Below, one piece after another: positions 6,064-52,073 of a stretch of DNA of 52,485 bases. Origin of the DNA: a bacterium (GTDB lineage Bacteria > Zixibacteria > MSB-5A5 > GN15 > FEB-12); the NCBI GenBank assembly GCA_030605565.1, contig JAUWIB010000101.1, positions 1-52,485 of the forward strand, given 5' to 3'. A model generated the notes under the pieces. That model was not told the DNA's origin, did no database searches, and worked only from the letters and a program-made list of their open reading frames with translations. Position 1 is the stretch's first letter. Each line of letters begins with the position of its first letter. The position numbers and the translations under genes were made by a program.

Positions 6064-6177
6064 GTCATTGCGAGTGACCGAAGGCACTCGTGCCGTAGGG
6101 AGCGCGGCAATCTCATTGGGCGCGGAGCGAGATCGCCGCGGTCGTCCCGCGCGGCGCGGGGCTCCCTCGCGATGACG
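6064..6177. repeat. Palindromic repeat, 'cgtcattgcgag' family, full unit
   Basis: The unit opens with 'gtcattgcgag' and closes with the near-reverse complement 'ctcgcgatgac', enclosing inner arms such as 'gcggcaatctcat'. Related full units are at 16594-16698 and 49059-49173, and half units at 39701-39745 and 44741-44814. It occupies most of the gap between the CYTH gene and the phosphomutase-fusion gene and would fold into a long hairpin in RNA from either strand. Confidence 0.85.
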
Positions 6178-16528: not shown

Positions 16529-16593
16529 AACGGAATATAGCACCCCGTTTTGGCGACGTCAACAATAGCGCCTGTTGAAAAAGGTCCTTTTCT

Positions 16594-16698
16594 CGTCATT
16601 GCGAGCGACCGAAGGGAGCGCGGCAATCTCATACTGTATGTCGCCCAATGAATTGAGATTGCCGCGTCGTCCGCCGCGGCGGACTCCTCGCAATGACG
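16594..16698. repeat. Palindromic repeat, 'cgtcattgcgag' family, full unit
   Basis: Begins 'cgtcattgcgag' and ends 'ctcgcaatgacg', an exact 12-base inverted pair, with inner arms 'gcggcaatctcat' and 'tgagattgccgcg'. It lies just upstream of the CDP-alcohol transferase in the 492-base gap 16529-17020, which otherwise contains only further repeats. Confidence 0.88.
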
Positions 16699-16723
16699 GC
16701 TTTCGTGGTTTGTCAACAAGCCT

Positions 16724-43542: not shown

Positions 43543-44580
<1,038 letters not shown>

Positions 44581-45100
44581 TTCACCACCCCTCAGAATGG
44601 ATTGTGATTTGTCTTTCTTTACCGAAAGTATCCGGGCAAACGGAGGTATTGTCAAGGACTGAGTTTTCACCCACCCGGCGCTCCGCTCTGGGTGGGGTAC
44701 CGGTCAAGGGGCAGACGGGGACGTCTGCCGCCCACAGAATGAGATTGCCGCGGTCACGCGAAACGCGCGACCTCGCAATGACGATTTGTACTGGTCGGCG
44801 ACCTCGCAATGACGGCTTCTGGGGTTCATCAACAAGCCCGAACGTCCGGGCCACCCAGCCAGCGGGCCTTGCGGTCAATTCTGAAGATTCGACCGCAAGA
44901 CACTAGCCGTCGAGTTTTAAGAACCCTTTCTCATCGAATTACGTTATATTAGTGCCGGTGGATCTGCGACCTTCAGCGGTTGCTAATGAACGGGCATGCA
45001 GAGGTCCGATGATTACCGCTGCGGCGTAAGGTGCGGAACAACAAGGGATTACAGCCTGCCCTCAACGGCGGTTCAGGGAATGAAAGGATAGCCGATATCT
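44581..45100. repeat. 520-base gap with repeats upstream of lon
   Basis: From the left: 'cccacccggcg...gctctgggtggggtacc' (44671-44702), 'gggcagac-gggg-acgtctgccgccca' core (44709-44735), right halves of the 'cgtcattgcgag' family (44741-44783 and 44793-44814) and 'gaacgtccgggccacccagcc' (44842-44862). The remaining stretch to 45100 is unassigned lon leader; a 'ttatatta' near 44944 could be part of its promoter, but no matching -35 is seen. Confidence 0.75.
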
Positions 45101-47777: not shown

Positions 47778-49001
47778 CTACTCCCGCCAGGTCGGACCAA
47801 CCATCGGTGGTTCGCCGCCGGTGAACATGAAGTCGACTAAGTAAACCAGGTCTGAGATGTCGTTGACGAAGTCGCCATTGATATTGGCTCGCCACTTAGG
47901 GTGAGGCGGTTCGTCTCCGCCGGTGAAGTACCAGTCCACCATCATGACCAGGTCCCCGATGTCGACGGTGAAGCTGCCGTCCAGATCACCGGGTACATAG
48001 TTGAAGTCCAGGTGAACCGGCCCGTCGCCGAGGGTAAACCTGTCAAGAATCGATCCGGCCGAATCGATCGGAGTAACAAAATCCGACATTCCCCCGACAA
48101 ATACAGTTGAATCCTGGTACGCGACCGCCATCATGCAACCAGAATCGACAACCAGGGGATTGGCCGGGCCGTGCAGCAAGTCTCCGGTGAGAGCATGGTA
48201 GGTGTAAACATAGCCGTCACCGACCCAGCCGCCTGCGGCCAGATAGCCGATATCTTCGAGGCTGATGGCTAACTGTCCGGGCGAACCTCCGACTGCTATA
48301 CTGTCGACAACGCTGTTAGTGGTCGGATCGATAACATAGACGATGCCGAACTTCGACCAGTAGTCACCGGTGCAGATGACATGGATGCGTCCCAACCGAT
48401 CGGTGGCAAGGTACTGCGGGTTCATGCCGACGTTGATGTCGAGGAGTTTCTGGTCGGTGTGAGTGTCATACACAGCCACTTTGCCCTGTCCGTACTGGTA
48501 AGTGTCCCAGTCAAACGCTGAGATCGCCACGTAAACCTTGAAGTCATGGATGATGACACCCTCGGGCGAAGTGCCGATCGGTGTTTCATCGACTACGCTG
48601 CCGGTGGCCATGTCCAGTTTCATCAAACTGTGGTTTGCGAAGCTGCTGACATAAGCGTACCGGCTGTCCAGGAACGCCATCCAAAACGGATTGGAGGCAG
48701 CGCCTGTGCTGATGAATCCAACTGTAGCTACACTGTTCAAATCCACTATCTGAATCTCGTCGGTGCCCGAGCAGACTATGTAAGCCAAAGTGTCATGTAC
48801 TACTACCTGATTCGGGTACGAAAACAAATCCGAGCCGAGCGGCAAAAGGTTGTTGGTCACCTGGCCGCTTTTCAGATCAATTCGCGAAAGCGTTTCTCCG
48901 ACGGTGTTGGCAACCCATGCCGTCGGCTCAGCCGCCGGCAGATTGTACGCCAGGACCAACAGCAAAAGAGCTGTCAGGCAGAATAAGCGCCAGATGGGCA
49001 T
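47778..49001 (-). CDS. Secreted YVTN-type beta-propeller with C-terminal dockerin-like repeats, BtuG-like
   Basis: About 407 residues. A signal peptide opens at ATG 49001 ('MPIWRLFCLTALLLLVLAY'); no lipobox is seen. Seven YncE/YVTN-like blades follow ('AWVANTVGETLSRIDLKSG', 'VDLNSVATVGFISTG', 'AVYDTHTDQKLLDINVG', 'YVIDPTTNSVVDSIAVGG'). The last 65 residues hold two dockerin-like calcium repeats ('GDLDGSFTVDIGDLVMMVD' and 'NGDFVNDISDLVYLVDFMF'). It follows the btuB-like gene in the same direction and under the same B12 riboswitch. In Bacteroides, a propeller of this class (BtuG) captures B12 for BtuB. The analogy is inference, but position and fold agree. The dockerin units may anchor it at the surface. 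Confidence 0.85.
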   Translation of the reverse strand: MPIWRLFCLTALLLLVLAYNLPAAEPTAWVANTVGETLSRIDLKSGQVTNNLLPLGSDLFSYPNQVVVHDTLAYIVCSGTDEIQIVDLNSVATVGFISTGAASNPFWMAFLDSRYAYVSSFANHSLMKLDMATGSVVDETPIGTSPEGVIIHDFKVYVAISAFDWDTYQYGQGKVAVYDTHTDQKLLDINVGMNPQYLATDRLGRIHVICTGDYWSKFGIVYVIDPTTNSVVDSIAVGGSPGQLAISLEDIGYLAAGGWVGDGYVYTYHALTGDLLHGPANPLVVDSGCMMAVAYQDSTVFVGGMSDFVTPIDSAGSILDRFTLGDGPVHLDFNYVPGDLDGSFTVDIGDLVMMVDWYFTGGDEPPHPKWRANINGDFVNDISDLVYLVDFMFTGGEPPMVGPTWRE

Positions 49002-49058
49002 GGTTGAATCACTGAGCCTTGGAGTGGTGGCCCGGACATTTAGGCTTGATGAGTTTCT

Positions 49059-49173
49059 CGTCATTGCGAGCGACCGAAGACACTCGTGTCGTAGGGAGCG
49101 CGGCAATCTCTTACGCCAAGTCTGCCAACGAATTGAGATTGCCACGACCAGCTTCGCCGGTCTCGCAATGACG
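49059..49173. repeat. Palindromic repeat, 'cgtcattgcgag' family, full unit
   Basis: Starts 'cgtcattgcgag' and ends 'ctcgcaatgacg', an exact 12-base inverted pair. It lies between btuB and the propeller gene and has no stop codon in the frame of the latter. As RNA it would form a long hairpin between the two cistrons and could set their expression ratio. Confidence 0.85.
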
Positions 49174-49225
49174 AGGGCACGAGCTTTTTCAACAAGCCCA
49201 TTTGTTGTAGTTAAGGTGTGGTTGT

Positions 49226-51562
49226 TCATTTCTTCCGTTCCTTCGGTGTAAAGGTGAGTTTCATGCCGAGGCTGTATTCCCGACCCGACATAGGATGCTT
49301 GGAGATCAGGACGTATTCTTCATCTCCTGCATTGCGCAGCCGACCGTCAAGTTGTAGACGCCAGCGAGAAGTAAGGTTTACCTGTGTCCCCAAACCTACC
49401 TCCTGAAGCGTGTAGCCATCGTACCATTTTTCGTTGCCGCTCAGAGCGTACCGTCGAGCGACCCGGCGCACGCGATAGGATGCAAAGGCAAGGCGGTGAT
49501 TCAATCGGATCCCCAAAGTGGTAACGTACCTCGGGGAATAGGTTAACCACTTGTCATAGCTGTTATGACCGGGTTGCTTATTGAGGGCGTGAGTAATACT
49601 GTTGCCATAAGAGATAACCAGCCGCTCTTTCCACAGCTTGAGGGTGATGAAGTCCTCATGTCCTGTTATGCGGACGGCGCCGAGATTGACCGGCTTGAAA
49701 ACACCCTGGGGGCCGCTTCGGACCCACTCTACCAGGTCCTCGACATTCTTGCGATAAACGGTGATGCCGGCCGAGAACTCAAACTGCTCGGTGCGGCCGG
49801 TCAGTTCGATACCTCCGTCAAGATGTCGGGAGCGTTCCGGTCTGAGATCGGGGTTCCCCTCAGAGCGGGCGTCGCCTTTCCAGAACAGGGCGTTGATCGA
49901 CGGCAACCTGAGCGACTCTCCCCAGGCCGCTCTGGCTACGAACCGAAGTCGCTCCCCTCGTGAAACCGTGACGCCGAACCGGGGCGACCAGGACTTGGTG
50001 CGGACGGTCTGCCGCGGTTTCTCCCACGGATACCGAGGAGCGGTTTTCTCCGGTGCGGTGGTGGCGTTATCGTATCTCAGCGCCGCCGACAGGGTAACGT
50101 CATCAAGCAGTCTCGTCCAGGATAGATCGAAAGGATGTCGGTCCAGGACAAAGGCCGAGTAGGTACGGCGCACCGTTATGCCGGAACCGTTCAGTTCCCT
50201 CAGGTAGTCGACATGATTCAGGACGTCGCGTTGATACTGAGCGCCCCACTCGAGCAGATTGTGCTTCAGTAAGCGGCACTCGATATCCGCCCGGATATCC
50301 AGGATGTCGTTGGTGAAGCGGGTATCGAACTGGTTTGTCGATTTCGCGTGGAGATCGCGAAATCGTTGCTCGTAGCGTGACAAACCGCCGGTGAGCCGGG
50401 CTTTCAACCGTGATGAAAACGATCGTTGCAGCGTAAGACCGGCCAGCACGCGATCGTCTTCACGGAGCGCGTACTGGTTGGGTTCCGAAGCACTACCGGG
50501 CAGGCCATTTTCACTCTCGTAGACTTGCAGCGAGTAGCTGACCCTGGTCCGGTCAGGGGTCCAGAGACCGGAGAGAAAGTAGTTGCGTGATTCGCTGCGG
50601 TTGTTGATCCGAGTACCCCGGTACACCGTTCCATCGGGTGAAATGTGGTAGTCGTAGTCAAAATCACCATCCGATGAACTCGCACTGTAGGCAATACGGT
50701 ACGTTTCCTTATCGAGGCGAAGCGGGTTGACCAGGGTGATCACGTGACGTCGGGTATCCCATTGGCCGAGATGGTTCTCCGTCTCAACGAATGACGGTTC
50801 TTGCAGCGTGGTTGGTTGCGTGATAATGTTGACCACTCCCCCGATTGCCCCCGGTCCAAACTGTGCCGAAGCGCCGCTCTTGTACAGTTCGATCCGCTGC
50901 ACCATCTCCACCGGCACACTGCTGAGGTCAGCCTCACCGCTGCCGGACGGATTGATTTTATGCCCGTCCAGAAGCACCAGCACCTGCTTCGGGGAACTTC
51001 CCCTGATACGAATCCGGGTCGGACCGCCCGGTCCGGTCCGCTCTACCTGGACACCTTCGACCGATTCAAGCAGTTCGGGAAGATCACTCGGACGGCTGTC
51101 CTCAATCTGTTGTCGGTCGATAATCGTCACATCCCCATGCAACTCCGGTCGCCTGGCCGAGACCGTTATACCCCGCACCGGGTAGATCTTCCGCTCCAGT
51201 GTGACCCGCACGTGGCGGGTGACATCAACCACCAGATCAATCTCGATCACTTTCCCGATTTGATAGCCGGGAGCAGTGACCCGTAGATGGTAAACACCTA
51301 AGGGGATATTGTCGAAAGCGAAGTTCCCCCGGTCGTCGGCAGCAACCTGGTACGAAGTGCCTTCCAGTTGTACAACGGCGCCTGCTATCGGACTGCCGTC
51401 CTGCTGATCGATAACCAACCCTCTCAGCCGGGTGTTCGATTGTGCCTGAAGATCGTCAGCAACAAACAGCAGTGACAAAACAGCGAATGCCACCAGAACG
51501 AGTAGATTGTTGCCACGATTGCGGTTAGAGACCGTAGGTCGAAACCCCTGTGGTTTCGACAT
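49226..51562 (-). CDS. btuB: TonB-dependent outer-membrane receptor, BtuB-like (vitamin B12 uptake)
   Basis: From ATG 51562 about 778 residues: signal peptide ('LLVLVAFAVLSLLFVADDLQAQ'), a carboxypeptidase-regulatory-like beta-sandwich ('LRGLVIDQQDGSPIAGAVV'), a TonB-box-like 'GITVSARRPE', the plug ('DLPELLESVEGVQVERTG', 'IRGSSPKQVLVLLDGHKI', 'GPGAIGGVVNIIT') and the 22-strand barrel ending 'YSLGMKLTFTPKERKK'. The cobalamin riboswitch upstream fixes B12 as the likely substrate. The start is unsure: ATG 51562 lies in a dispersed repeat, while ATG 51799, just after the riboswitch and with 'gagggt' upstream, is in frame but would put about 80 repeat-encoded residues before the signal peptide. 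The propeller gene follows. Confidence 0.9.
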   Translation of the reverse strand: MSKPQGFRPTVSNRNRGNNLLVLVAFAVLSLLFVADDLQAQSNTRLRGLVIDQQDGSPIAGAVVQLEGTSYQVAADDRGNFAFDNIPLGVYHLRVTAPGYQIGKVIEIDLVVDVTRHVRVTLERKIYPVRGITVSARRPELHGDVTIIDRQQIEDSRPSDLPELLESVEGVQVERTGPGGPTRIRIRGSSPKQVLVLLDGHKINPSGSGEADLSSVPVEMVQRIELYKSGASAQFGPGAIGGVVNIITQPTTLQEPSFVETENHLGQWDTRRHVITLVNPLRLDKETYRIAYSASSSDGDFDYDYHISPDGTVYRGTRINNRSESRNYFLSGLWTPDRTRVSYSLQVYESENGLPGSASEPNQYALREDDRVLAGLTLQRSFSSRLKARLTGGLSRYEQRFRDLHAKSTNQFDTRFTNDILDIRADIECRLLKHNLLEWGAQYQRDVLNHVDYLRELNGSGITVRRTYSAFVLDRHPFDLSWTRLLDDVTLSAALRYDNATTAPEKTAPRYPWEKPRQTVRTKSWSPRFGVTVSRGERLRFVARAAWGESLRLPSINALFWKGDARSEGNPDLRPERSRHLDGGIELTGRTEQFEFSAGITVYRKNVEDLVEWVRSGPQGVFKPVNLGAVRITGHEDFITLKLWKERLVISYGNSITHALNKQPGHNSYDKWLTYSPRYVTTLGIRLNHRLAFASYRVRRVARRYALSGNEKWYDGYTLQEVGLGTQVNLTSRWRLQLDGRLRNAGDEEYVLISKHPMSGREYSLGMKLTFTPKERKK

Positions 51563-51605
51563 CACGCGCTTGGCGTGATTCTTTGGCTTTGTCTTGGTGG
51601 TCGTA
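51534..51605. repeat. Repeat at the 5' end of btuB, left copy of a repeated pair
   Basis: 'gtcgaaacccctgtggtttcgac' core at 51538-51560 followed by 'gattctttggctttgtcttggtgg' core (51579-51602). Almost the same sequence recurs at 52105-52188, so two copies flank the riboswitch. Two more units between 51640 and 51740 belong to the 'cttgcctgtcgaaac' and 'ccttcgactgcgctcagg' families. Confidence 0.8.
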
Positions 51606-51874
51606 GGTGTGATCACGTGGCGCACGAGGGCGTACACCACGCACAAAGAGGTGGCATGCCTGTCGAAACCTCGCCCTTCGACTGCGCTCAGGACGACACG
51701 GTCAAGCCGTGTTTCTTGCCCTTCGGGGCAGGGGGTTCGACCTACAAAACTAACGGGAGTTGACAGAGATTCCGGGCTGATTACAAAATGCCGCCGCATG
51801 ACGTACCCTCGGCTGCCACCGGCGACGGGATGATACCTGTCAGCCCGCGCTGACGGCAACGAACAAAGATGAGA

Positions 51875-52033
51875 TTGTGGCAGGTTTCCTGGCTTGGGCT
51901 TCAAACCTCCGGCAAGCGCCTTCCCCGTCAATGACGAGTGGCTTCGGGCCTGCGGAGTAGCCCTTACAGTAGCGGGGCTGCGACGGCTTCGCACCGTCTT
52001 CCCTATTATCCGTCCCGATGGACGGCACCACAA
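51875..52033 (-). promoter_or_regulatory. Cobalamin (adenosylcobalamin) riboswitch
   Basis: On the minus strand the conserved parts appear in order. Stem P1 is 'ttgtgg' (52033-52028) with 'ccacaa' (51880-51875). Then come 'gggaagacggtgcgaagccg', 'gcagccccgctactgtaagg', 'gccactcgtcattgacgggg' followed by 'aaggc', and the B12 box 'agccaggaaacctgcc' (51894-51879). A hairpin 'gtcagc...gctgac' (51854-51839) follows, then 'gagggt' at 51810-51805 before ATG 51799. No T-run is seen, so control of translation is more likely than termination. It regulates the btuB-like receptor and, through it, the propeller. Confidence 0.95.
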
Positions 52034-52042
52034 CGTTTGAAG

Positions 52043-52073
52043 GTAATAACGCTCGCTAACCGGGGAATGTCAA
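52043..52073 (-). promoter_or_regulatory. Probable promoter of the riboswitch/btuB transcript
   Basis: Minus strand: 'TTGACA' (52073-52068) and 'TATTAC' (52048-52043) with a rather long 19-base spacer. Transcription would begin near 52036, three bases before the first base of stem P1, which supports the assignment. Confidence 0.6.

Follow-up and report, generated by a model that had tools for sequence, protein, structure and literature searches.

The window examined here, a stretch of 52,485 nucleotides from a member of Candidatus Zixiibacteriota, carries on its minus strand a cobalamin riboswitch, followed by a gene for a BtuB-type TonB receptor and then by a gene for a secreted beta-propeller. 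We consider it likely, at a probability of about 0.7, that these form a B12-repressed scavenging operon whose propeller, attached by other than lipid means, would act as a lid on BtuB, with B12 capture and cohesin docking as its predicted activities. The nearest named records are metagenome-assembled genomes of this phylum, which confirms an earlier suggestion that the host lies outside Bacteroidetes; the assembly that contains the window is 3.39 Mb in size and 96% complete. The features of the locus are the following.

51862–52047, minus strand: cobalamin riboswitch aptamer (RF00174; cmscan 123.2 bits, full length 1–189)
49226–51562, minus strand: BtuB-like TonB-dependent receptor with an N-terminal CarboxypepD_reg domain (start codon inferred; a longer reading extends to 51799)
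49054–49198, no strand assigned: dispersed repeat between btuB and the propeller gene (second copy at window positions 16589–16722)
47778–49001, minus strand: BtuG-like secreted beta-propeller with a C-terminal dockerin pair (407 aa, from the translation)
47997–48932, minus strand: propeller domain, mature residues 1–312 (from the ortholog family and the conservation of loops on the predicted ligand face)
47781–47990, minus strand: two tandem dockerin-like EF-hand units (calcium-ligand pattern present twice)

The initial annotation had proposed a riboswitch, a BtuB-like receptor and a propeller gene in this order, at coordinates that prove correct within a few tens of bases, and the RF00174 score, the Pfam domains and AlphaFold2 modelling confirm the assignment. 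The receptor likely starts at the ATG at 51562 and not at 51799, because sequence conservation is poor over the longer upstream part; likewise, the propeller gene likely runs from the ATG at 49001 to the stop at 47778, and an alternative ORF of 483 aa from 49229 runs through the inserted repeat. It is the insertion of this repeat that accounts for the 224-bp gap between btuB and the propeller gene, whereas in the other loci the median gap is 21.5 bp and the genes often overlap by 4 bp (the value tabulated for locus L130 is a frame artefact). Another copy pair of the dispersed repeat is found at 49060–49110 and 6064–6114. Elsewhere in the window, at 43543–44670, lies an ORF with a long pentapeptide-like repeat run followed by membrane segments.

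One could suppose that an ordinary YVTN repeat protein has come to lie behind BtuB by chance, given that YVTN propellers are common and that the sequence of this one is not specific to BtuG, but the distribution of the locus speaks strongly against this. The propeller has an orthologue in 25 of the 61 genomes of the order and in 73 of the 132 genomes of the phylum. We read 65 orthologous loci, 4 of which end at a contig end before the position of btuB; in every one of the 61 testable loci, which represent 15 or more families of the phylum, the gene immediately upstream, on the same strand, encodes BtuB, and each of the 53 loci that extend far enough before a contig end has the riboswitch upstream. 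The propeller thus shares with BtuG its place beside btuB in a cobalamin-riboswitch locus, and conserved adjacency, which had earlier been put forward as the test of this proposal, turns out strongly in its favour. Furthermore, the second match in the propeller search was single and clearly weaker. We therefore reject chance adjacency on the strength of the phylum-wide synteny and regard it as extremely improbable.

Relatives that lack the propeller differ in their receptor. In those examined, the gene behind the riboswitch encodes a divergent BtuB that is shorter and has no CarboxypepD_reg, the exception being genome G057, in which the long BtuB type is followed by masked N; the propeller thus pairs with one receptor type only. 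In the propeller-less relatives, the gene that comes after the riboswitch and short BtuB usually encodes a conserved protein of 130–150 aa that has no signal peptide (L061:5660–6061, and about 15 further loci among L055–L072). The two copies of this protein that were scanned gave no Pfam match, and it may take part in B12 use as a cytoplasmic partner.

The riboswitch itself scores far above the gathering score of 31.5 bits and is the sole cobalamin riboswitch of the genome. CbiC, a corrin-ring enzyme, was detected in 0 of the 61 genomes of the order, whereas the control search matched 7 of 14 reference genomes. Corrinoid scavenging is therefore expected, and judging from gene content these bacteria are expected to depend on corrinoids.

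The receptor contains CarboxypepD_reg, plug and barrel domains, all above Pfam cut-offs, and several comparisons place it in the BtuB family, as had been claimed. When a profile built from 25 of these receptors was compared with solved chains, BtuB1 scored 223 bits, BtuB2 178 bits and E. coli BtuB 173 bits, these three came ahead of every other solved TonB receptor, with XusA and CirA at 136 bits. The best family for the window receptor is TIGR01779 (B12 receptor), which all 25 members match, with a score for the window receptor of 139 bits that does not reach the equivalog cut-off of 599.7. Consistent with this, the receptor model (pLDDT 88) has a TonB plug and a 22-strand barrel with BtuB as the nearest structures; its best Foldseek matches are 8p98, 8blw, 8p97 and 8bmx, with the BtuG-bearing BtuB3, BtuB1 and BtuB2 ranked first, and by Z score the BtuG-bearing BtuBs and E. 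coli BtuB are tied. Control by a cobalamin riboswitch, conferred by the RF00174 element upstream, is a further feature that the receptor has in common with BtuB.

The propeller begins with a signal peptide that ends in AxA and lacks the lipobox cysteine, which confirms the initial description of a secreted protein without a lipobox; the same is seen in the order-level orthologues, with one class-level orthologue (L113) being ambiguous. The AlphaFold2 model (pLDDT 92, pTM 0.92) likewise supports the seven blades that had been proposed. The first Foldseek match of this model is 8bai, the BtuG2–cyanocobalamin complex, and its Z scores against BtuG chains are 31–35, as befits a BtuG-type seven-bladed fold; by this measure generic propellers are level with BtuG, the YVTN protein 1l0q giving Z 36.0 with 2.1 Å over 287 residues. 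Searches by sequence match BtuG structures at E about 2e-7, and the scores are 89.5 bits for 1l0q and 38–45 bits for BtuG. Orthology to BtuG is hence not reached from sequence alone, where 1l0q outscores BtuG, and at this level the propeller appears to resemble BtuG no more closely than it does other YVTN proteins of the generic kind. One orthologue (L010, G046:C338) has an in-frame TAG and is either a pseudogene or affected by a sequencing error.

More can be said of the face on which BtuG binds B12. Across 60 orthologues the loops on this face are more conserved than those on the opposite face (p=1e-5, with columns that are not independent and in a repeat family, YVTN, that conserves this face in general). 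The BtuG2 pocket includes Trp194, Tyr239, Trp272 and Tyr316 (PMC10404256). The equivalent of Tyr239 is Tyr or Phe in 60/60 orthologues and that of Trp194 is loosely conserved, being aromatic in 48/60; the remaining two are not conserved in this set, in a part of the protein, the last blades, where the alignment is weak. Like the B12 face of BtuG2, these propellers are acidic, with −6.9 net charges per 100 residues compared with −4.7 in the BtuG of Bacteroides finegoldii. The residue mapping used the B. finegoldii BtuG locus (L152), which came from plasmid records that also yielded a Persicobacter pair; plasmid matches to the propeller itself were to generic YVTN proteins only, and a search of viral contigs found no BtuG relatives. 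Overall, the propeller probably uses the B12 face of BtuG with a partly different pocket. With a fold that generic propellers match as well and a BtuG2 pocket conserved only in part, B12 binding by the propeller is a prediction. This partial conservation, together with the absence of the lipoprotein signal that defines BtuG, is also why we do not class the propeller as BtuG and describe it instead as a BtuG-like predicted B12 lid that would work as BtuG does, with a new mode of attachment.

That two pocket residues are not conserved also raises the idea that the propeller serves as a lid for something other than B12, for example a siderophore or a precursor of cobamides, and merely resides in a B12 operon; in Bacteroides, propeller lids of the XusB type do bind siderophores (PMC13142918). 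We think this quite improbable, because throughout the phylum the propeller gene is invariably linked to a cobalamin riboswitch and a receptor of the BtuB type, because the corrin-ring synthesis marker is absent, and because the partner receptor groups with BtuB and apart from siderophore receptors.

Near its C-terminus, in residues 338–407, the propeller protein contains two EF-hand or dockerin-like loops, DLDGSFTVDIGD and NINGDFVNDISD. In both, positions 1, 3, 5, 9 and 12 are occupied by permitted calcium ligands, so that the pattern D/N-x-D/N/S-x-D/N/S-xxx-D/N/S-xx-D occurs twice in tandem. The window protein has no match to Pfam Dockerin_1 at E<=1, and 16 of 21 aligned orthologues match that family at E<=0.01. 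At this one locus, tails from 60 orthologues fall into three kinds: a dockerin-like pair in 47 (with two strict calcium loops in 34 of these), a T9SS type A sorting domain in 11, and a membrane helix in 2. The T9SS domain, which is absent from the window propeller, scores above the TIGR04183 cut-off in each of the three such tails tested (L113, L118 and L119). The helix tails, both in family f13 (L142 and L144), consist of a hydrophobic membrane helix with basic residues after it and match no NCBIfam anchor family. In a tree of the propellers, the members with T9SS tails fall into a single group, and those with helix tails lie among the dockerin-tailed ones. The genome of the window has 18 dockerin hits in total, and dockerins are present in 125 of 129 genomes of the phylum, so the propeller gene is not alone in having a dockerin module, which at this locus is interchangeable with two other tails. 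The initial annotation is borne out on the dockerin pair and the missing lipobox, from which it had suggested a new anchoring mode.

These tails bear on whether the propeller acts at the surface. A signal peptide without a lipobox would also suit a propeller that is released or periplasmic and carries B12 in solution instead of capping BtuB. In addition, PF01497, the family of BtuF-type periplasmic binders, is present in 13 of 14 control genomes and has no match in the window's genome at E<=0.001; such a propeller would supply a periplasmic B12 binder that is otherwise missing. Nevertheless, a soluble carrier seems unlikely, since the T9SS-tailed orthologues are predicted to leave the periplasm and the pairing with one type of BtuB suggests contact with the receptor.

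If the propeller is instead a surface lid, as we favour, there is a candidate partner for its dockerins. Cohesins, which had been suggested as something to look for in the same genome, are present there with 6–8 hits (and in 117 genomes of the phylum), and several of the proteins concerned have a T9SS tail. This is clearest in a secreted protein of 282 aa in which Cohesin and Por_Secre_tail both score above cut-off (L156:1615–2463, G000:C62); its gene is closely followed by one resembling a serine/threonine kinase. From the T9SS-tailed cohesins, and from the precedent of Cloacimonadota discussed below, we infer that the dockerin pair replaces T9SS sorting, and a dockerin–cohesin relay is the likely anchor of the propeller.

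It is also worth asking what sets the type of tail. We rejected the presence of the T9SS translocon as the determinant: SprA is nearly universal, being found in 124 of 129 genomes of the phylum, and Por tails occur in all genomes. Nor does the presence of cohesins predict the tail, since the T9SS-tailed lineages other than f17 have them. The sole separator of the two groups is the number of first-look Por-tail candidates, 99–302 in T9SS-tailed genomes compared with 25–97 in dockerin-tailed ones, and the lineages concerned are related. Genomes of families f16 and f17 (G119, G120, G121, G122, G114 and G115) have 131–302 such candidates, and dockerin and cohesin hits are both absent from three f17 genomes. 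Altogether, four genomes that lack dockerins also lack cohesins (hypergeometric 4.5e-5), a co-absence that is suggestive only, as three of the four belong to one family.

A different reading of the dockerin pair is that it is a compact, calcium-stabilised end domain, or a signal recognised by secretion machinery on many exported proteins. The dockerin hits in the window's genome outnumber its cohesin hits, three genomes of family f1 (G076–G078) and several others have dockerins and no cohesin hit, and the model packs the pair against the propeller with high confidence. On the other hand, the devices that take its place in other lineages, a T9SS tail or a helix, both serve export or attachment; moreover, the dockerin-less genomes are cohesin-less as well, and the cohesin proteins of the window's genome themselves bear T9SS tails. 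We regard this as a serious but less favoured possibility and prefer cohesin docking.

Taken together, these observations can be arranged into a working mechanism. When cobalamin is scarce, the riboswitch would permit expression of btuB and the propeller gene. The propeller would be exported, kept at the cell surface and placed over BtuB as a cap, as in the BtuG of Bacteroides, and its negatively charged top face would capture corrinoids and pass them to BtuB, which would import them in a TonB-driven manner. Attachment would require no lipid: in the lineage of the window, the most likely partner of the two dockerin units would be a cohesin that reaches the surface through the type IX secretion system, and in other lineages the same propeller would rely on its own T9SS sorting tail or C-terminal membrane helix.

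A riboswitch–BtuB–propeller operon is conserved throughout an uncultured phylum of bacteria expected to be corrinoid-dependent. In a 2018 survey of human gut genomes BtuG was exclusive to Bacteroidetes (PMC6143338); with the operon conserved in a second phylum, B12 scavenging with the help of a lid looks more widespread, and perhaps more ancient, and these data suggest that it extends beyond Bacteroides. Tail modules that replace one another at a single locus offer a natural experiment on lipid-free retention at the surface of Gram-negative cells and, if docking occurs as proposed, extend cohesin–dockerin logic from polysaccharide breakdown to vitamin uptake. A broader reading, less probable than not but worth considering, is that across the phylum the tandem dockerin is a general surface-display tail swapped with a T9SS domain or membrane anchor, and that T9SS-exported cohesins hold exported nutrient-capture proteins by their receptors, a modular relay in the role that surface lipoproteins have in Bacteroidota. 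The B12 propeller lid would then be a clear instance, and it may have been recruited independently of BtuG. In a search that covered part of the literature, we found no paper joining BtuG or a TonB vitamin receptor to dockerins, and none on a dockerin-tailed vitamin capture protein.

The closest known systems are BtuB1G1, BtuB2G2 and BtuB3G3 of Bacteroides (PMC6143338, PMC10404256), which share with the locus described here a cobalamin riboswitch and an adjacent BtuB and seven-bladed propeller, as well as an auxotrophic host, the aligned Tyr239 and the nearest receptor and lid structures. The present system differs in its phylum, in having no lipobox or lipoprotein export signal, in its C-terminal dockerin pair or T9SS tail, in a BtuB with CarboxypepD_reg, and in the lack of conservation at Trp272 and Tyr316. 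XusA–XusB (PMC13142918) is likewise a TonB receptor with a propeller cap, but its ligand is an iron-siderophore, its lid is a lipoprotein, there is no cobalamin riboswitch, and the receptor matches XusA less well than it does BtuB1 (136 compared with 223 bits). The archaeal YVTN S-layer propeller 1l0q is alike in fold and repeat sequence and has no link to B12 genes. With respect to attachment, the nearest parallel is in Cloacimonadota, for which a cellulosome-like arrangement of dockerin cargo on a T9SS-anchored cohesin scaffold has been proposed (PMC8542988); the proposed logic is the same, whereas the cargo there consists of degradative enzymes and here would be a vitamin-capture protein under riboswitch control.
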